From contig JAPUEH010000023.1 of NCBI GenBank assembly GCA_027492635.1, positions 1-42,288 of the forward strand: a stretch of DNA of 42,288 nt. Direction: 5' to 3'. The stretch comes from Candidatus Saccharimonadota bacterium. Lineage in GTDB: Bacteria; Patescibacteriota; Saccharimonadia; Saccharimonadales; Saccharimonadaceae. Below the pieces are notes generated by a model. It worked only from the letters and a program-made list of their open reading frames with translations. It ran no database searches and was not told the DNA's origin. Both the position numbers and the translations under genes were made by a program. Shown piece after piece: positions 1,290-27,613 of this stretch (positions are counted from its first letter, which is position 1; each line of letters opens with the position of its first letter).

Positions 1290-2861
1290 ATGAACGCACT
1301 ACTATATATCCGTGTATCAACGGTGGATCAAGCAATTCGAGGAGGGCAGCCGGAAGGATTTTCAATTCCGGCGCAACGAGAAGCTTGTAGAAATAAAGCA
1401 AAGAATTTGAGAGCAACCGTCGTCGACGAATACGTCGATCGTGGTGAATCTGCTCGCTCGGCAGACCGACCTGAGCTACAACGCTTACTTACTGATCTGG
1501 CATCTCGTAAGGACATCGATTACATTATCGTCCACAAACTCGATCGTCTCGCTCGGAGTCTTCATGATGATGTGACAATCGCGCTCGCTATCCAAAAAGC
1601 GGGCGCGAAACTTATATCCGTTATGGAAAACATTGACGAAACACCATCGGGTCAACTACTACATGGCATTATGGCAACGATCGCTGAATTCTATAGTCGC
1701 AACCTTGCTGCCGAGGCACTGAAAGGGGCAACCCAAAAAGCGAAGCGTGGCGGCACACCGTTTCGTGCCCCGATTGGATACGTGAATATTGTGCAATATA
1801 TCGATGGTCGAGAAACACGAACGGTTGCTGTTGATGAAGATCGAGCACCGCATATTAAGTGGTTATTCGAACGATATGCATCTGGTGAGTGGAACGGGAA
1901 AATGTTAGCCCGCGAACTTGCTAGACGAGGATTTAAGAGTCGTCGAACAGGGAGCTCAGTTGCTAAGGTAATCTCTCCGTCGACTGTCTACAAGATATTG
2001 CATAATCGCTACTACGCAGGATACGTCACGTATTGTGGCATTGAATATAAGGGTAGACATCGGGCTATTGTGAACCCTGCACTTTTCGCAGCGGTTCAAG
2101 CACTCCTAGATAGTGCTCGCAAGCGCAACGTTCGTCGTCGCAAACATGATCATTACCTCAGTGCGACACTCAGTTGTGGTCAGTGTGGTAAAACACTGAT
2201 TTTTGCGCAAGCAAAGCAGCGGTATCATTATTTCTTCTGTCCGAGCAGACAACAAGGTGCTCATTGTCGACAACCATTCATCCCAATTAGCCTTATCGAA
2301 GAAGCGATTAGCAACAACCTGAATCGCTTGATCTTGAACCAGAGGCAGCGTGAAGAACTCCGCAAAGAAACGCGCATGCTCTTAAGAGATGAGCTGAGGT
2401 ACGCCAAGATCGAAACGGGTATTCAGGAAAAACGCCTCAGCAAGCTTCTTTCTGAGAAAGACCGACTACTCCAAGCCTATTATGAGGATATCGTGACGCC
2501 TTCTACCTTAAAGCGTGAGCACAAGCGAATCGATAAAGAACTTGAGGATGTACGAGAATTACTGAGTGAATCGCAGGCAACCGTCTCGGCGGTCAATCTT
2601 CGATGTGATCATATTTCTGCTCTAGTGGATACATTACAGCTCAAAGAATCCTACCTTGCCGCAAGCCCGCAGATACGACGTTTTTTCAACCATGCTCTTT
2701 TTGAGACTATCGTGATTAATGATCAGAAACCTCTTAGTCATTCCACTTATAGACATGATGTAACGATTGAACTCGTACGTCTCCGGCAGGATATTGACTA
2801 TAGGAAGCTCGCGTTGGCGATAGCGGGTCTGACGTATACTGATACTGAACATGTTAACTAA
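1290..2861 (+). CDS. Large serine recombinase (site-specific integrase)
   Basis: A 523-residue protein of the large serine integrase/transposon resolvase family, which cuts att sites through a 5'-phosphoserine link and integrates or excises mobile elements. The N-terminal catalytic domain has the nucleophile Ser10 in Tyr-Ile-Arg-Val-Ser, and the Arg-Leu-Ala-Arg and Gly-Gln-Leu-Leu-His-Gly segments typical of the resolvase fold. A recombinase domain follows (about residues 160-280), then a zinc ribbon (Cys-Gly-Gln-Cys-Gly near 295 and Cys-Pro...Cys-Arg near 315-325), then a long coiled coil (about 350-450) and a C-terminal tail. The length fits intact family members. AAGGAGG sits 6 nt before the ATG at 1290. 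A strong terminator follows. It probably mobilised the two preceding genes. Confidence 0.93.
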   Translation: MNALLYIRVSTVDQAIRGGQPEGFSIPAQREACRNKAKNLRATVVDEYVDRGESARSADRPELQRLLTDLASRKDIDYIIVHKLDRLARSLHDDVTIALAIQKAGAKLISVMENIDETPSGQLLHGIMATIAEFYSRNLAAEALKGATQKAKRGGTPFRAPIGYVNIVQYIDGRETRTVAVDEDRAPHIKWLFERYASGEWNGKMLARELARRGFKSRRTGSSVAKVISPSTVYKILHNRYYAGYVTYCGIEYKGRHRAIVNPALFAAVQALLDSARKRNVRRRKHDHYLSATLSCGQCGKTLIFAQAKQRYHYFFCPSRQQGAHCRQPFIPISLIEEAISNNLNRLILNQRQREELRKETRMLLRDELRYAKIETGIQEKRLSKLLSEKDRLLQAYYEDIVTPSTLKREHKRIDKELEDVRELLSESQATVSAVNLRCDHISALVDTLQLKESYLAASPQIRRFFNHALFETIVINDQKPLSHSTYRHDVTIELVRLRQDIDYRKLALAIAGLTYTDTEHVN

Positions 2862-11532: not shown

Positions 11533-12557
11533 GCAGCTTCGTCGCGCAACTGCAATCCTTTTTTCGGACAGACACAGCGCGGCTCATGTGTACATACCTT
11601 GCCATTATCATGGCTATGAGTGGTGCGTTTAGTATTGTTTTATATGGCACCTCCACGGGACAGCTAGAGCGTCAGCGTCCACCCCGTCTTGGCGTCAGTG
11701 ACGAGTTTCCACTTCGCGCAAGTCCAGAGTTTCGATCATTTATTGCGAATCGTATCGAAGAGGGTAAGCAAAAAATCGCGTTCAACCTCATAGTTACAAA
11801 TATTTTTGTACTCTTAGGAGGTGCTTTGTTGAGCTACTACTTGGCTCGTCGCACACTAGAACCAATAGAAGCAGCTATGGAAGCGCAGGTGCAGTTCGTG
11901 AGCGACGCAAGTCATGAACTCCGGACTCCGCTCACGGCGCTCCGTGCAGGCAACGAAGTGGCGCTTCGCCGCAAAAACCTCACACTCCAAGAAGCCAAGC
12001 AAACAATTCAAGACAATATAGAAACAACTGAACGCCTACAGCAGCTGACCGACGGCCTCCTTGGCCTGGCAGCAAACGACGCTATTACACCTACACAAGA
12101 GATTAGCCTTCAGGAAGTTGTAGCAGCAGCACTCATGAACGTCTCCGCCAAAGCACTCGAAAAAGACATTTCAGTTGATGACAGGATCGAGCCCATCACC
12201 CTTAGAGCCGACAAAAGTGCGTTGATTCAACTTCTCACCATCCTACTCGACAATGCCGTCAAATATAGTCCGCCAGAATCGACGATCACCCTCAGCAATA
12301 CCTTAAAACAAAAAAATCACGTCGTTTCAATCCACGTCACAGACCAAGGTATCGGTATCGATGAAAAAGACGCGCCGCACATTTTCTCGCGATTCTATCG
12401 TGCGGATTCATCACGCTCTGTTACGCCGGGGCATGGACTAGGATTACCTATTGCCCACAAAATCGCCAAAGCACACAATGGCGTACTTAGTGTTGAAAGT
12501 ATCCCCGGAGAAGGTAGCACCTTTACCATTGATCTGCCTATCAATTCCAAAAGCTAG
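11529..12557 (+). CDS. Membrane sensor histidine kinase
   Basis: A 342-residue EnvZ/BaeS-type sensor kinase. Two membrane helices (about 20-40 and 84-105) enclose a short extracytoplasmic segment of about 45 residues, too small for a folded sensor domain of usual size. The DHp domain carries the phosphorylated His129 in Ser-His-Glu-Leu-Arg-Thr-Pro-Leu. The ATP-binding domain shows the N box Leu-Leu-Asp-Asn-Ala-Val-Lys-Tyr, the G1 box Asp-Gln-Gly-Ile-Gly-Ile and the G2 box Gly-His-Gly-Leu-Gly-Leu. No clear HAMP domain is seen between the second helix and DHp. The GTG start overlaps the regulator stop (GTGA); the next Met is at residue 20. Its stop overlaps that of the convergent branching enzyme within CTAG. 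Confidence 0.93.
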   Translation: MSSFVAQLQSFFRTDTARLMCTYLAIIMAMSGAFSIVLYGTSTGQLERQRPPRLGVSDEFPLRASPEFRSFIANRIEEGKQKIAFNLIVTNIFVLLGGALLSYYLARRTLEPIEAAMEAQVQFVSDASHELRTPLTALRAGNEVALRRKNLTLQEAKQTIQDNIETTERLQQLTDGLLGLAANDAITPTQEISLQEVVAAALMNVSAKALEKDISVDDRIEPITLRADKSALIQLLTILLDNAVKYSPPESTITLSNTLKQKNHVVSIHVTDQGIGIDEKDAPHIFSRFYRADSSRSVTPGHGLGLPIAHKIAKAHNGVLSVESIPGEGSTFTIDLPINSKS

Positions 12558-14509
12558 TCACGGGCGAGCACAATAGCCGTACGCGCTGGTAGATAAATCA
12601 TTAGCTGACTACCCCGTACCGCATACACTTCCTGCAGAGAGACTCGATCGCTGCCCCCAAAGCGACCTTCGTCAGTCGACAGCACGACAGAATACGAGCC
12701 ACCAGGAGCGGGCAGCCCGTAGTTTTCGTATGATGAATTTGGCGAAAAATTATAGACAAACAAATACTTGCCTCTTGCGTATGACAACACACCATCACTC
12801 TGATGGACATACTGGTACCCAACATCTCCGCCTATATCTGGCAGTAGGTGAGTCATTGCCGCATCAAACGCAGCCAGCTGATTGTATTTTAGCGACGTAT
12901 CATCCGCAAGGCTCCATTGCCTTCGCGCATATGTATACGACCAGCCATTACCTGCGCGCGGAAAATCAATCCACTCCGGGTGCCCAAACTCATTGCCCAT
13001 AAAATTAAGATAGCCGCCGCCATGTGTACTCGCCGTCAGGAGACGAATCATTTTATGCAGACTTATCGCGCGCGCTATCACCAGATTATCATCCTCGACC
13101 TGCATATGATCATACATCTCCTTGTCTGCCAAGCGAAAAATTACCGTTTTATCGCCCACGAGCGCCTGATCGTGGCTTTCCGTATAGCTAATTACACGCT
13201 CCTCGGGCCGGTGTATGGTAAGCTCGTGGAGTAACCCAGCTAAATCCCACTCCTCGTCTTTTTTGTGCTTGAGTGTCTTGATCCAGAGATCGGGCGCGCC
13301 CATGCTCAGGCGATAATCAAAGCCGATGCCGTCATTTTCAACAGAAGCGGCGATACCGGGCAAAGCGCTCATATCTTCGGCAATTGTTATAGCGTTCGGT
13401 TTCACACTATGCGCCACGGCACCCGCGAGTGTCAGATAGGTGAGCGCGTCAAGGTCAACATCATCGGTAAAATAATCATCATAGCTCGCAAACGACTTCT
13501 CCAGCCCGTGACTGTGATACAGCATACTTGTCACACCATCAAACCGATAGCCATCAAAATGAAATTCATCAAGCCAATAACGTACATTGCTGAGCAAAAA
13601 ATGAGCAACCTCTGGCTTGCCATAGTCAAACGTACGCGAATCCCACTGCCTATGGTGTCCTCGCTCACCAGGATGAAAGTACTGATCATACGATCCATCT
13701 TGGCGACCAAGACCCTCTTCTTCGTTTTTGACAGAGTGTGAATGTACAATATCCATAATGACGCGCAGCCCCATACTATGCGCAGTATCAACAAGCTTTT
13801 TGAGATCGTCTGGAGTACCGAAGCGTGAACTTGGAGCAAAATAATTGGCTACGTGATAGCCAAAACTACCGTAATATGGATGCTCGGCAATAGCCATTAG
13901 CTGCACGGTATTGTAGCCAGCTTTTTTGATGCGGGACAGGATATTTTTTGTAAAATAAGCATAGCTTGCAACTTCTTCTTGTTCGGAACTCATACCTACA
14001 TGAGCTTCATAAATCAGTGGTATGCCCGTTGAAGGAGTAAAGTCCGCATCTGTCCATGCAAATTCTTTTTCTGGCGCCCATACTTGTGCGGCAAATAGCT
14101 TGGTGTCCAAATCCTGCACTGCATAGCGCACGTAGGCGGGCAAGCGATAACCACTGCCACCATCCCAATACACATGCAGTTTGTAGTTGTCACCATGCTG
14201 CAATACATCCTCCGGGACCTCAAGCAGCCAATTATCGCCCTCGCGCGTAAACGCATACTCATCACTATCTTGCCAGTCACAAAAATCACCCACAAGTACA
14301 ACGTTTGTGGCGTTTGGTAGCCATTCTCGTAGTACCCAGCCGTCCTGGGTACGATGCAAACCAAAATACAGGTAGCCGAGCGCAAACTCACTGGCAGATT
14401 TGCCACCCAGTATCCGACGGGAATTTTCGAGAATATGCCAATGACGCGCCTTGAGCTTATCTTCATAGGGCTGCAGCCATGGATCGATCTGGGTAAGTTT
14501 TTTAACCAT
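12554..14509 (-). CDS. 1,4-alpha-glucan branching enzyme, eukaryote-type (GH13_8)
   Basis: A 651-residue glycogen branching enzyme that makes alpha-1,6 branches. An N-terminal CBM48-like beta domain (about 50-150) precedes the GH13 barrel. Visible are Ile-Tyr-Glu-Ala-His-Val-Gly-Met, the nucleophile region Asp-Gly-Tyr-Arg-Phe-Asp-Gly-Val, the acid/base region Ile-Ala-Glu-Asp-Met and Glu-Ser-His-Asp, then an all-beta C-terminal domain. The wording of these blocks (Ala-His-Val-Gly-Met-Ser-Ser, Arg-Phe-Asp-Gly-Val-Thr-Ser-Met-Leu-Tyr) is that of the eukaryotic GBE1/starch-branching subfamily rather than bacterial GlgB. The ATG at 14509 is chosen because TACAAT ends 7 nt upstream. No glycogen synthase or phosphorylase is in the window. 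Confidence 0.92.
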   Translation of the reverse strand: MVKKLTQIDPWLQPYEDKLKARHWHILENSRRILGGKSASEFALGYLYFGLHRTQDGWVLREWLPNATNVVLVGDFCDWQDSDEYAFTREGDNWLLEVPEDVLQHGDNYKLHVYWDGGSGYRLPAYVRYAVQDLDTKLFAAQVWAPEKEFAWTDADFTPSTGIPLIYEAHVGMSSEQEEVASYAYFTKNILSRIKKAGYNTVQLMAIAEHPYYGSFGYHVANYFAPSSRFGTPDDLKKLVDTAHSMGLRVIMDIVHSHSVKNEEEGLGRQDGSYDQYFHPGERGHHRQWDSRTFDYGKPEVAHFLLSNVRYWLDEFHFDGYRFDGVTSMLYHSHGLEKSFASYDDYFTDDVDLDALTYLTLAGAVAHSVKPNAITIAEDMSALPGIAASVENDGIGFDYRLSMGAPDLWIKTLKHKKDEEWDLAGLLHELTIHRPEERVISYTESHDQALVGDKTVIFRLADKEMYDHMQVEDDNLVIARAISLHKMIRLLTASTHGGGYLNFMGNEFGHPEWIDFPRAGNGWSYTYARRQWSLADDTSLKYNQLAAFDAAMTHLLPDIGGDVGYQYVHQSDGVLSYARGKYLFVYNFSPNSSYENYGLPAPGGSYSVVLSTDEGRFGGSDRVSLQEVYAVRGSQLMIYLPARTAIVLARD

Positions 14510-14516
14510 TAGCACC

Positions 14517-14522
14517 ATTGTA
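14517..14522 (-). promoter_or_regulatory. -10 box of the branching enzyme gene
   Basis: On the minus strand TACAAT ends 7 nt before the ATG at 14509; TTGTCA lies about 19 bp further upstream. A leaderless mRNA is expected. Confidence 0.45.
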
Positions 14523-14574
14523 CTACGAAGTGAGAGCCGTATGACAAAAACCCCAAGCATACCAACCTCTAGCC

Positions 14575-14603
14575 TTGACGTATTACCATAAAAAAGGTAC
14601 TAT
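14575..14603 (+). promoter_or_regulatory. Promoter of the structured RNA/tRNA-like unit
   Basis: TTGACG (14575-14580), exactly 17 bp, then TACTAT (14598-14603). Transcription should start near 14610, about 200 nt before the first tRNA-like element. Confidence 0.65.
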
Positions 14604-14609
14604 GTAGGT

Positions 14610-14812
14610 TGTGCAGATGTGTGCACGGCGAGTTTTGCATGAAAAAGTTTCGTGCCTGACTCGCTGTGCGCTTACCTGGCACGTTCTTTAACAGACAAAG
14701 ATAGTGTCGTGCGAAGGTCGTGTGTTTCCGACCAGCGTGCAGACCGGTGTCGATAAGGGTATAGCCAAGGGGCGAGATGAACCGTAAAACGTTTGTCTCG
14801 CCCCTCACCAAG
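14610..14812 (+). ncRNA. Structured leader RNA with boxA-like element
   Basis: No gene is seen here. The stretch has several complementary arms: GCACGGCGAG with CTCGCTGTGC (around 14623-14669), GGTCG with CGACC (around 14719-14736) and GGGGCGAGA with TCTCGCCCC (around 14769-14804). CGTTCTTTAACA at 14682-14693 resembles the boxA antitermination element of rRNA leaders. I recognise no known family; RNase P, tmRNA, SRP RNA and 5S rRNA hallmarks are absent. It is probably a transcribed leader processed when the tRNA-like RNA is matured. Confidence 0.4.
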
Positions 14813-14887
14813 CGGGATATGGCGCAGCCTGGTAGCGCATCGTTTTTACAAAAGCGAAGGTCGCAGGTTCGAATCCTGTTATCCCGA
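14813..14887 (+). tRNA. tRNA-like gene 1 with 18-nt anticodon arm
   Basis: The cloverleaf is clear. The acceptor CGGGATA (14813-14819) pairs with TATCCCG (14880-14886), the D arm is GCGC/GCGC with an AGCCTGGTA loop, and the T arm is GCAGG-TTCGAAT-CCTGT with a 5-nt variable loop. The anticodon arm between them is 18 nt instead of 17, giving an 8-nt loop TTTACAAA. If the first loop base after the standard U33 counts, the anticodon would be TAC (Val). The same arm can fold as a 7-bp stem with a TACA tetraloop. CCA is not encoded. It may be a functional odd tRNA, a degenerate copy or a tRNA-like RNA. Confidence 0.6.
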
Positions 14888-14892
14888 CGATG

Positions 14893-14914
14893 AGCCTGCA
14901 ATTCCGTAGGCTCA
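14893..14914 (+). other. Short hairpin between tRNA-like gene 1 and the small ORF
   Basis: GAGCCT and AGGCTC enclose about 10 nt, just after the tRNA-like 3' end and just before the ribosome-binding site of the small ORF. It may protect the processed end. Confidence 0.4.
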
Positions 14915-14937
14915 CACTTCAAGAGGAAGGGTCAATC

Positions 14938-15081
14938 ATGGCCACCAAGGAGCAGTACGTCAACGCGGCGAAGGCGAACCCCAACGACCGCACGGCCGAG
15001 CAGCAACGGCTCGTCGACAAGGGGAAGAATCTCCAGGAGGTGAAGAACGCCGATTTCGAAGCCCGAGGCCGCAAGAACTAG
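14938..15081 (+). CDS. 47-residue charged protein between two tRNA-like genes
   Basis: A 47-residue hydrophilic, Lys/Glu/Asn-rich protein, probably helical, with no Cys, no membrane segment and no known motif. The ATG at 14938 follows AGAGGAAGG with about 7 nt spacing. Codon use is strongly biased to C or G at the third position, unlike the neighbouring branching enzyme and Dus genes. A 7-bp hairpin (15063-15069 with 15084-15090) spans the stop codon and ends just before tRNA-like gene 2. Both tRNA-like genes and this ORF appear to share one transcript from 14575. I do not recognise the family. It could be recently acquired. Confidence 0.6.
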   Translation: MATKEQYVNAAKANPNDRTAEQQRLVDKGKNLQEVKNADFEARGRKN

Positions 15082-15093
15082 CCGCCTCGGCAG

Positions 15094-15168
15094 GGGAGTA
15101 TAGCTCAGTTGGTAGAGCACTCGTCATTCGTGACGAGAGGTCGCAGGTTCGAATCCTGTTACTACCCG
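15094..15168 (+). tRNA. tRNA-like gene 2 with 18-nt anticodon arm and mispaired acceptor
   Basis: D arm GCTC/GAGC and T arm GCAGG-TTCGAAT-CCTGT are standard. The acceptor GGGAGTA faces TACTACCC, so either one A is bulged or, counting the G at 15093, an 8-bp acceptor with one G/A mismatch forms. The anticodon arm CTCGTCATTCGTGACGAG is 18 nt and forms a perfect 7-bp stem with a TTCG tetraloop; with a 5-bp stem the loop has 8 nt and no clear U33-anticodon register. CCA is not encoded. A translating tRNA seems doubtful; a tRNA-like or decayed gene is possible. Confidence 0.5.
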
Positions 15169-15416
15169 CAAGGAGCGATTACCCCTTCAAGTATCCTGCG
15201 TGCGTTTATCCAATGCGCATCCACGGATCTCACTCCCAGCAAAACGGCTTCGTTGCCGCGATTCCGTTTTGCGTGGCGAGTAGCCGCGTCACTGTACCTC
15301 CCCCCGGCAGTTGACGCGGCTACTCAGCCGTCCTACCCAAGATGCTATCTTTGTCTGCATCTACCAATACCCATATTTTGCATAAAATGTGAGTTTTGTT
15401 AGACGAAAGGAATAGT
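15169..15416 (+). other. Intergenic region with two strong stem-loops
   Basis: No gene is seen. One stem pairs GCAAAACGG (15239-15247) with CCGTTTTGC (15264-15272). A second is a perfect 14-bp stem, 15278-15291 with 15312-15325. Neither has a T tract. They could end the tRNA-like transcript in a Rho-dependent or processing-linked way, or be a separate RNA. A TAAAAT at 15383-15388 may be the -10 of the next gene. Confidence 0.45.
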
Positions 15417-15629
15417 ATGTTAGAATTTCAACCCACAAACACAACAGATTATGACCCGCCCGCAGAGCTCTCTTTAGCTGAAGCTGAGGCATTTTTGAGA
15501 GGCACCACAGAAGATACGCCTACAGACACTCGCGAATTCAATGTTCGCGATATTAGCGACACCACGATCAAGTCCATACAAACCGCGCTCGATCATCTAC
15601 GAGCAATGCCAGAGAAGCCGACGGAGTAG
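15417..15629 (+). CDS. Small acidic protein upstream of Dus
   Basis: A 70-residue acidic protein rich in Thr, Glu and Asp, with two predicted helices (about 20-32 and 50-64) and no membrane segment or metal motif. The ATG at 15417 is chosen because GAAAGGA lies 5-6 nt upstream; the earlier in-frame start at 15396 has no such site. It ends 2 nt before the GTG of the Dus gene, so the two are in one operon. I do not recognise it. It does not end in Gly-Gly-Gln or Gly-Gly-Glu, so it is not an obvious Pup. Confidence 0.65.
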   Translation: MLEFQPTNTTDYDPPAELSLAEAEAFLRGTTEDTPTDTREFNVRDISDTTIKSIQTALDHLRAMPEKPTE

Positions 15630-24945: not shown

Positions 24946-26346
24946 TTATTCCTGAGCCGTCGGCTCGGACGAAACCGACGAATCCGTCGCATCGGTTGCC
25001 GACGAATCGTCAGCATCCGATGTGTCTGGAGTTTCCGGAGTCACCTGGCCGGGCGACTCCGGATTCGACGAATCCACATCCGAGTCCGACACCGCAAGCG
25101 GGTCGTTCGTGACGACCGGACTAGGTTCGGGCTCAGGTTCCGTGACGTTGTTCTCCGAATCGGAGATCGCAGTCGTGTCGGGCGCAGGTTCCACCGGAGT
25201 TGCCGTCACAGGCACCTCCGGAAGCACCGTGGGCGTGGCTGCGGCCGGCTCTTGACCAGTAGCCACCTCGCTCGGCATCGTCACCGAGTACGAACTCGAC
25301 GAAACGGGCACAGTCGACAGACCGTGAATCGGCACCGCAGCATTGCCGGGTGTCGGCTCGGAGATCTTGTAGAACTTCTGCCACGCAGCGTCCCACTCAG
25401 CCAGATCGTCCGCTGTGTACTCGATGCCGAGCGAGTCGTACAGCGCAGCCGTCGCCAACGCGAACGGGTGCGCTGTCTTGAACACCGAGTACATCGTGGC
25501 ACCGTCATCACTCAGATACGTGGTCGACGGACCCAGCGAGGTGATGGTGCCATAGTGCTGTGGACCCCGACCGCTGTGAACGGTCAAGAATCCAGCCGCA
25601 TTGACGGCGAGCGACGAAATCGGCCGCAGCGGCTGCCACTGCCAATTCGCCACCGGATCACCCGTCAGGATGACGGAGGTGACCGCCGTGTCGCCAGTAG
25701 CGCCCGGATCACGAGCACCATCCGACTTGACGCCGATCACACCCAGGAGTTCGGGCAGAAGCGGCTGGCTAGCCACCCACTGCTTGACACCCCACGGACC
25801 ACGAGGATCCGACATGAGCACCACGAGCACGCCAGGAGGAATCACACCCTCCGCGTATGCCTCTTCCACGGCGTTGCCGAGCGCATCCGCACCCTGCGAG
25901 TAGCCGTTGAAGATCACCAGCACACCGGGCGGATTGTCGTTCAGTGCACGGAAGACGGCCAGGTTGCCCTGAACCGCCTTTTCCTTGGACTTGTCGTAGC
26001 TCGGTGCGAAGAAGGGCAGCAACGCACCCGACTTGCCCGAGATGATCGGACCAACCGACTCCGGATACTGCACCACATACGTGGTGCGCGTACCCGAGAG
26101 GCCGGCCGTACGGTCGAGCAACGACGTGTCGTCGGTACCCGGCGTGATGATCACGATCGCCGGCAGACCAGGATACCAATCCTGGGTGTTGTCGGGACGC
26201 GTGCCATCGGAGATGACACCCGAATCGATCAGACCCTGGATGTTCGGCGGCACGGCCGCCGATGCAGTCACTGGCACAGCCAGCAGGGCGGCAGTAGCCG
26301 CCATACCAGCGCCGAGGGTGGACATGGACGTGAGAGAGCGAGCCAC
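24946..26346 (-). CDS. Secreted PE-PPE-domain serine hydrolase
   Basis: A 466-residue secreted protein. A signal peptide (1-30, ending Ala-Ser-Ala-Ala) leads an alpha/beta-hydrolase domain of PE-PPE type (about 60-330): Ile-Thr-Pro-Gly-Thr-Asp-Asp, the nucleophile elbow Gly-Tyr-Ser150-Gln-Gly-Ala-Asp, and Leu-Thr-Gly-Asp-Pro-Val-Ala-Asn. A Ser/Thr/Pro/Glu/Asp-rich low-complexity tail (about 355-466) looks like a wall-spanning linker. The family is known from Mycobacteriales as esterases or hydrolases of cell-envelope lipids. A GTG start follows AAAGGAG with 6 nt spacing. Third-position GC is very high compared with the atp genes. By inference it was acquired from an actinobacterial host and acts on that host's envelope. 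Confidence 0.85.
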   Translation of the reverse strand: MARSLTSMSTLGAGMAATAALLAVPVTASAAVPPNIQGLIDSGVISDGTRPDNTQDWYPGLPAIVIITPGTDDTSLLDRTAGLSGTRTTYVVQYPESVGPIISGKSGALLPFFAPSYDKSKEKAVQGNLAVFRALNDNPPGVLVIFNGYSQGADALGNAVEEAYAEGVIPPGVLVVLMSDPRGPWGVKQWVASQPLLPELLGVIGVKSDGARDPGATGDTAVTSVILTGDPVANWQWQPLRPISSLAVNAAGFLTVHSGRGPQHYGTITSLGPSTTYLSDDGATMYSVFKTAHPFALATAALYDSLGIEYTADDLAEWDAAWQKFYKISEPTPGNAAVPIHGLSTVPVSSSSYSVTMPSEVATGQEPAAATPTVLPEVPVTATPVEPAPDTTAISDSENNVTEPEPEPSPVVTNDPLAVSDSDVDSSNPESPGQVTPETPDTSDADDSSATDATDSSVSSEPTAQE

Positions 26347-26568: not shown

Positions 26569-27528
26569 CTAGCTCGCGGCTGCCAATGGCGGCAGGACGG
26601 GCTTCTCCTCTTCGAGGGCGATCTCGACAACCTCGGGCAGTGCTTCGACCATAACAGGTCGAGTAGCTACTATCCAGTTGCGCCGAATCGCGACGATGCT
26701 GACTGACTTTTCGCCCGGTACGGTGACGGGTGCAAGCATCGCAAGCACCCGCATGAGCCCTTCGTCACATCGAACGCCCTTTGTCCGCAGAAACTGTCCG
26801 ACAGGATGGGCTGCATTCAAGACCACGTGGGTCGTCGAACTGTCAGCCGACTGCCGAACACTCCGCAGGCTGAGCGTTCCCACTCGTGACGCACTTTCGC
26901 GCCCAAGTCCAGCATGAGTCATGAAAAACCCAAAGATCGTGTTCAGTACGAACCCAATCGGATTTTTCCACCACACCTCAAACGCCGTCACAGGATCACC
27001 CACGATAGCAATTGAGGTCACGCGGATGTCACCCATCAGCTGTTCGTCAGCAGCACCATTGCGAGCAGCGCCACAAAATCGCTCCAGCAGCCACGCTACC
27101 AAGGGATGATGACGCCCCAGATGCGGCTTGAAACCGGTCGAACTACGGGGATGACCCCACACAATCAGCTCGATTTCTGCATCTGGCTTGATGCCGAGCT
27201 TACGCAGGCCAGCGACCGCCAGCCATGCTGCTTCGGCACCTTGCGAGTAGCCGACGATGACAACCTTGCCCGAGATACCTCGAACGGCCTCGGTCGTCGC
27301 GGCAATTGCCTTAGCGCACGACGTGTCATAGCGATCGGCTCGAAGGCCTCCGACGACCGGTCCGACAGTGGCAGGGTAGTCGATGACCACGAGCCTTGAA
27401 AACAGCTCAACAAACCACTTCAACCAGCAGAGGAGGTTTTTACCCCCTCTGTCATCTGTTCCCGGTACGACAACAAGTGTCGCACCCTGAGAGGCAAGCC
27501 CCTTAATGTACTCATTCGCATACTGCAT
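26569..27528 (-). CDS. PE-PPE-domain serine hydrolase, no signal peptide
   Basis: A 319-residue paralogue of the neighbouring hydrolase. It shows Val-Val-Pro-Gly-Thr-Asp-Asp near the N-terminus, Tyr-Pro-Ala-Thr-Val-Gly-Pro, the elbow Gly-Tyr-Ser95-Gln-Gly-Ala-Glu and Ile-Val-Gly-Asp-Pro-Val-Thr. It lacks both the signal peptide and the Ser/Thr-rich tail, so it is cytoplasmic or exported by another route; a middle hydrophobic stretch (Pro-Ile-Gly-Phe-Val-Leu-Asn-Thr-Ile-Phe-Gly-Phe) may touch membrane. ATG 27528 is preferred because GGAG is 9 nt upstream. Third-position GC is high. The pair may be a duplication after or before transfer. Confidence 0.82.
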   Translation of the reverse strand: MQYANEYIKGLASQGATLVVVPGTDDRGGKNLLCWLKWFVELFSRLVVIDYPATVGPVVGGLRADRYDTSCAKAIAATTEAVRGISGKVVIVGYSQGAEAAWLAVAGLRKLGIKPDAEIELIVWGHPRSSTGFKPHLGRHHPLVAWLLERFCGAARNGAADEQLMGDIRVTSIAIVGDPVTAFEVWWKNPIGFVLNTIFGFFMTHAGLGRESASRVGTLSLRSVRQSADSSTTHVVLNAAHPVGQFLRTKGVRCDEGLMRVLAMLAPVTVPGEKSVSIVAIRRNWIVATRPVMVEALPEVVEIALEEEKPVLPPLAAAS

Positions 27529-27613
27529 GCGAATCAACTCCTTGTTGTCGGTGGGAGAATGTATAAGATTCTACCAGTACTAAATTCACCTTGCAGCGGA
27601 TGCCACGAGGGAC

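Follow-up and report, generated by a model that had tools for sequence, protein, structure and literature searches.

A putative rRNA-operon-like expression unit of Saccharimonadales combines tRNA folds lacking decoding features with an exchanged small ORF

What are two tRNA folds doing on either side of a 47-codon open reading frame (ORF) when neither has an assignable anticodon? The question is raised by the window, as we call the whole 42,288-nucleotide stretch of Saccharibacteria DNA analysed here, whose source genome comprises 1.01 Mb in 24 contigs and is 96% complete. Both elements lie on the forward strand, tRNA-like 1 at 14813–14887 and tRNA-like 2 at 15094–15167. The acceptor, D and T arms of a tRNA are present in each, and the scores of 58.5 and 55.1 bits with the Rfam model RF00005 confirm as real tRNA folds the two tRNA-like genes that a sequence-only reading had noted. 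ARAGORN also detects both and returns 'tRNA-???', with no anticodon assignable. The 18-nt anticodon arms are as that reading had described them: arm 1 (TCGTTTTTACAAAAGCGA) can be drawn as 5 bp with an 8-nt loop or as 7 bp capped by TACA, arm 2 (CTCGTCATTCGTGACGAG) forms 7 bp capped by UUCG, and a 5-bp stem with a 7-nt anticodon loop containing U33 is absent from both. Its description of a bulged or 8-bp acceptor in the second element also holds, the acceptor having an internal G-A mismatch (15096/15164) or, alternatively, 8 bp. All 37 other tRNAs of the genome, which serve as a control, have an encoded CCA and an ordinary anticodon; tRNA-like 1 and tRNA-like 2 have neither.

The window sequence and its relatives delimit a single unit at approximately 14575–15400, all on the forward strand, whose existence is well supported by sequence comparison. 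It begins with a promoter (TTGACG-17-TACTAT, 14575–14603) read in the sequence and aligned across four species of the genus, in agreement with the good promoter claimed earlier, and TTGACA/TATAAT-like boxes occupy the same position in other genera. The structured, boxA-bearing leader noted in the sequence-only reading is likewise present. Leader folding and alignment place a hairpin (CGGCGAGT...ACTCGCTG) at 14626–14667, within a segment (14611–14691) of folding z −7.1, and the boxA-like motif CGTTCTTTAACA (14682–14693) matches TGCTCTTTAACA at 10 of 12 positions and runs into the 5' arm of a long-range outer stem (14692–14720, with its 17-bp core at 14692–14708). A hairpin (AGGGGCGAGATGAAC/GTTTGTCTCGCCCCT, 14768–14805) leads to tRNA-like 1, which is followed by another hairpin (GAGCCT...AGGCTC, 14892–14913) read in the sequence and by folding; the surrounding segment (14888–14937) has a z of −2.9, and an equivalent hairpin stands at the same place in three sister species. 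The Shine-Dalgarno sequence AGAGGAAGGG (14922–14931), read in the sequence, precedes the ORF (14938–15081), as Shine-Dalgarno sequences also do in front of the ORFs of other loci. Downstream of tRNA-like 2, the tail (15170–15328; z −7.2) contains two hairpins (15239–15325), at 15239–15272 and at 15278–15325, the latter with a 14-bp perfect stem. The 3' arm of the outer stem (15329–15357, core 15341–15357) and a last hairpin (15365–15398), supported by alignment and by a covariance model from other genera, complete the unit. In many other genera this last hairpin is terminator-like with a T tract, which is absent in the window's genus.

The unit as a whole folds strongly around an open ORF, a feature that, like the outer inverted repeat and the absence of CCA, goes beyond the sequence-only reading. 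The piece between the arms has a z of −11.6, and the ORF alone is unstructured (z +0.5). At 15 further loci, the units have z values of −5.5 to −15.9 with strongly folded non-coding cargo, and the ORFs of the window and these loci lie between −2.8 and +0.5, i.e., are at most weakly folded.

The surroundings of the unit also differ among relatives. By eye, the gene upstream in the window (12554–14560, reverse strand) is glycogen-branching-enzyme-like, and in the three other genomes of the genus (G001–G003) and most relatives this place is taken by the end of a nuclease/helicase-like gene, indicating a local rearrangement on the 5' side of the window's unit. At many loci, the unit is separated from dus, the gene for tRNA-dihydrouridine synthase, by additional small and unrelated ORFs (L063/L091; window 15417–15629, where the 70-aa ORF has no Pfam match). 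Elsewhere in the window, a large serine recombinase (Resolvase, Recombinase and Zn_ribbon_recom domains) is encoded near the contig start at 1290–2861 (forward strand), and an integrated element may be truncated by the contig end. Two hydrolase genes of the PE-PPE/cutinase-like type known from mycobacteria (24946–26346 and 26569–27537, both on the reverse strand; GC3 0.72 and 0.59) were possibly acquired from actinobacterial hosts.

The ends of the predicted RNA would be held together by an inverted repeat of 29 nt, whose arms lie 608 nt apart on either side of the tRNA-likes and the ORF; one of 400 shuffles matched its uninterrupted core of 17 bp. The core signature is present in the arms at 35 of 60 collected loci, counting one locus under two names (L090 and L130) and including a few weak cases. 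At 23 of these loci, 99.6% of the cells of a 12-bp core are paired (34–54% in slid controls) and 11 of the 12 pairs show both-sided changes, with 58 such cells compared to 12 in shuffles and none of 500 shuffles reaching this level, although selection of the loci for complementary arms raises the paired share and partly the covariation. The arms also have a common sequence core and a fixed place between boxA and the 3' hairpin, neither of which played a part in that choice. Upstream of the arm, the closest match to TGCTCTTTAACA has a mean of 8.0 of 12 positions over 37 loci (5.4 in shuffled sequence; maximum of 1000 shuffles, 6.1); the motif is perfect in G002 but weak in G003 and certain other loci. 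In the window's own genome, the rrn leader carries TGTTCATTAACA and differs from the unit leader. A boxA-like motif and a long-range stem, both rRNA-type features, are present in a window that contains no rRNA match.

The unit is common to many Saccharibacteria across Saccharimonadales. The three remaining genomes of the genus all have it at an equivalent position, and a search by way of the adjacent dus gene reached a further 60 genomes of the family, many with the unit immediately upstream. Outside the genus, a tail-only model (R1) hit coding DNA by chance, and a second covariance model (R2), comprising the 3' arm and the following hairpin, was therefore built from other genera. Of the 392 genomes of the class, 41 have an R2 match, distributed over 17 genera and three families, at about one match per genome; these counts are lower bounds because R2 misses the window's own genus. 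Among 379 Patescibacteria genomes, R2 found matches in its own order, Saccharimonadales, and none outside it. Two tandem units within a single genome were observed at L045 (genome G026) and on contig C67 of genome G072.

The tRNA-like elements of relatives have lost the ordinary anticodon arm in differing ways. We listed 29 elements, 23 of them distinct, to which ARAGORN adds those of L066 and L129. All lie on the transcript strand and keep the acceptor and T arms, and nearly all keep the D arm. The anticodon arm ranges from 12 nt (CCTA-GCAA-TAGG, L040) to over 80 nt (L032), with about 49 nt in the first element of G002 and more than 40 nt in the second of G003; three tRNA-likes are present in G001. 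UUCG or GCAA tetraloops close several of the arms, among them an 18-nt arm of 7 bp with GCAA in L064 that repeats the window's design. By eye, a 7-nt loop with U33 is found only in the second element of G002 and in L083 among approximately 25 elements, and CCA follows the element only in L061. The earlier preference for a shared design over two independent decays is borne out by these approximately 25 distinct abnormal elements in the same unit, at about 20 loci in many genera. Roughly half of the loci have no detectable tRNA-like, so the element is dispensable for the unit.

The ORF between the tRNA-likes encodes a MATK-type miniprotein and, on codon-position identities of 0.57/0.65/0.37 in an 11-species alignment, is coding and under purifying selection. 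Its model is a three-helix miniprotein (pLDDT 88.5) with no Foldseek match in the PDB, and the protein has no match in Pfam, PHROGs or NCBIfam. Of 392 genomes, 11 carry the MATK family, each with a single copy and each time inside the unit, and among 84,980 species it is limited to Saccharibacteria/Patescibacteria records. Cargo between the arms is swapped even inside one genus, whereas the promoter, the arms and the 3' hairpin are retained. In the window's genus, G001 has an ORF homologous to that of the window (54% over 35 aa), and G002 and G003 carry a different, CxxC-type ORF. Across loci, the cargo includes MATK-type proteins, CxxCxGxG-type peptides and others, and the interior structure of the unit is not conserved between species. 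By eye, the cargo of L045 and L088 starts with an apparent signal peptide (MLRLRLFVLFMVVSMAMA and MRVFRLALMLAVVMVAMA), so some cargo proteins may be secreted. At L130 (~1950–2110 of the reverse complement, genome G307), a CxxC-rich cargo ORF is apparently frameshifted, with the second half of the family pattern continuing in another frame, which is either an assembly error or a real frameshift.

Codon use sets the cargo apart. The window's ORF is GC-rich with unusual codons, as had been claimed, with a GC3 of 0.89 (41 of 46 codons) compared to at most 0.61 in 29 other window genes (p 2e-5 even when tested against 0.61). High expression does not account for this value, as ribosomal-protein genes have a GC3 of 0.36–0.54, nor does structure, because synonymously shuffled versions fold no less well than the real, unstructured ORF. 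In 37 of 38 loci, the cargo ORF, chosen by Shine-Dalgarno sequence and position and not by GC3, exceeds dus in GC3 (means 0.70 vs 0.46). Origin, or translation in a host of high GC content, could explain the GC-rich codons.

With the unit, its conservation, the covariation of its stem, coding by its ORF, the exchange of its cargo and the absence of decoding features demonstrated at the level of sequence, the explanation we favour, at a probability of about 0.6, is an antiterminated, end-paired RNA that expresses a small, swapped protein and in which the tRNA-likes would be modules for structure or processing that do not decode. The function of the unit, including antitermination, processing, stability and the role of the protein, is what we infer here. 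The unit would be a Saccharimonadales-specific expression unit with the architecture of a miniature rRNA operon, in which a strong promoter and a boxA leader would permit antiterminated transcription through dense structure. A long stem formed by the two ends of the RNA would allow RNase III processing or give protection, and the sole open segment would act as a mini-mRNA with a good Shine-Dalgarno sequence for a protein of 40–70 aa. A tRNA body that is kept, with its anticodon arm capped or replaced, would stay out of translation, and the tRNA-likes could serve as stable fold units and/or as cut sites for RNase P or tRNA maturation flanking the mini-mRNA, even though, without an encoded CCA, they may be poor RNase P substrates. 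Roles in processing or regulation, as the sequence-only reading proposed for these elements, may thus apply. Cargo, meaning structure and ORF together, would plausibly be replaced through natural transformation, which is described in Saccharibacteria (PMC10633639), and recombination in the flanks. Conserved flanks around replaced cargo suggest a protein that faces a varied partner, for example the host, phages or competitors.

Several other readings of the same evidence were weighed. The RNA itself could be the product, i.e., a large structured non-coding RNA acting as scaffold, sponge or regulator, in which the ORF tunes stability or folding. The very strong folding of the non-coding parts at every tested locus is consistent with this, as are the conserved ends, the covarying stem and the tRNA-like modules. 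However, the interior structure varies between species, unlike that of known functional non-coding RNAs, the amino acids of MATK are kept over genera as third positions vary, and the ORFs have good Shine-Dalgarno sequences and unstructured bodies, so we consider a purely RNA product rather unlikely. It is less likely still that the unit is a mobile or cassette element whose terminal inverted repeats resemble an RNA stem by chance. Its arms are inverted repeats, its cargo is exchanged and L045 has tandem units, but it occurs at nearly one copy per genome and mostly at one fixed place, its arms contain G-U pairs (window, L033, L037 and L045), and the promoter, boxA and hairpin outside the arms are conserved together with them. 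A transposase or integrase is absent from the unit, which is too short for a recombinase of its own.

The GC-rich codons bear on two further ideas, both of which we hold to be improbable. In the first, slightly the more credible, the unit would be an export-grade messenger, a nuclease-resistant RNA whose ORF would use GC-rich codons for translation in the GC-rich actinobacterial host on which Saccharibacteria live, with the paired ends, tRNA caps and dense structure as the source of resistance. If this were true, the epibiont would deliver small effector proteins as RNA, and cargo exchange would follow host changes. In the second, the cargo would be phage- or host-derived, captured and decaying; the excess of cargo GC3 over dus points this way, as do the likewise high values of the PE-PPE/cutinase-like genes and a weak likeness of the Cys-rich peptides to small phage families (phrog_8897, E 6e-4). 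Against it, the ORFs of the window and G002 had no tblastn match among 50,697 phage records, the MATK family is absent from viral contigs and has the narrow taxonomic range given above, and purifying selection on MATK does not fit decay.

The position and form of the tRNA-likes raise the remaining readings. The mimics might sit in a leader through which dus is autoregulated, with Dus binding their elbow, since D and T arms are kept and dus is directly downstream in nearly all loci of the family. In two other families, however, the unit does not adjoin dus (L129, before an ABC transporter, and L130), and dus is therefore a neighbour rather than a partner; autoregulation is made very unlikely, too, by the terminator-like hairpin and separate promoter that precede dus at many loci and by the share of loci without a tRNA-like. 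Working tRNAs with an enlarged anticodon loop, including the frameshift decoding once suggested for these elements, are still harder to sustain. An 8-nt loop (UUUACAAA) is one possible drawing of arm 1, yet arm length and loop are unconserved, UUCG and GCAA caps and the lack of encoded CCA do not fit decoding, many loci have no tRNA-like at all, and the other 37 tRNAs resemble an ordinary set. Finally, ordinary tRNAs damaged by sequencing error or decay can be practically dismissed: relatives have no ordinary tRNAs at these places, and homopolymer error in arm 1 is an insufficient explanation because independent genomes carry the same abnormal class in the same unit.

The locus would represent an rRNA-style class of RNA locus whose description we did not find in the open literature and which, judged by sequence, appears to be neither a working tRNA, nor a tmRNA, nor a known Rfam family. 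No description of the unit was found in open-access literature, Rfam, Pfam, PHROGs or NCBIfam, and Rfam 15 gave no family above the gathering cut-off except tRNA. Open-access papers on tRNA-like, small and non-coding RNAs in Saccharibacteria, with few preprints among them, contained nothing on the locus, and the texts of PMC10633639 and PMC11665869, searched by word, yielded nothing either. Within a large epibiotic group of bacteria, this conserved class of locus brings together a leader of rRNA type, a stem that pairs the ends, tRNA folds without decoding features and a small protein that is rapidly exchanged, and it would offer a natural example of tRNA bodies serving as building blocks of RNA. 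Its cargo proteins could bear on the partnership with the host, and the unit offers a clear knock-out target in those Saccharibacteria that are now transformable.

Parts of this architecture are known from other systems. Like tmRNA (ssrA, RF00023), the unit places a tRNA-like fold and a short ORF on one transcript; however, its tRNA folds are complete, separate and not formed by two ends, and its ORF has its own start and Shine-Dalgarno sequence. RF00023 has no match in the window, and the genome's canonical tmRNA is at C9:13610–14011. In eukaryotes, MALAT1/mascRNA and mitochondrial tRNA punctuation are cases in which tRNA-like folds and tRNA-processing enzymes set the end of an RNA. The unit's tRNA-like fold could likewise set the end of a longer RNA, although it is bacterial and lacks an encoded CCA (NEAT1 and MALAT1 are covered in PMC12941219). 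The GOLLD, ROOL and OLE RNAs (PMC12286853) are similarly large and very structured bacterial RNAs, from which the unit differs in having no Rfam match, carrying an ORF and exchanging its interior. The tRNAOther of Bacillus cereus (PMC3399842) is also a bacterial tRNA fold unused in translation, but it is a single RNA beside a genomic island, whereas the unit's folds are modules with capped anticodon arms in a conserved transcript unit. Similar in layout are the leaders and processing stems of rRNA operons, with boxA/NusB, RNase III stems and spacer tRNAs, which share the promoter, leader, boxA, long-range stem and tRNA folds; in the unit, the leader is unlike that of its own rrn, the tRNA folds appear to be non-decoding, and the place of the rRNA is taken by a small ORF.
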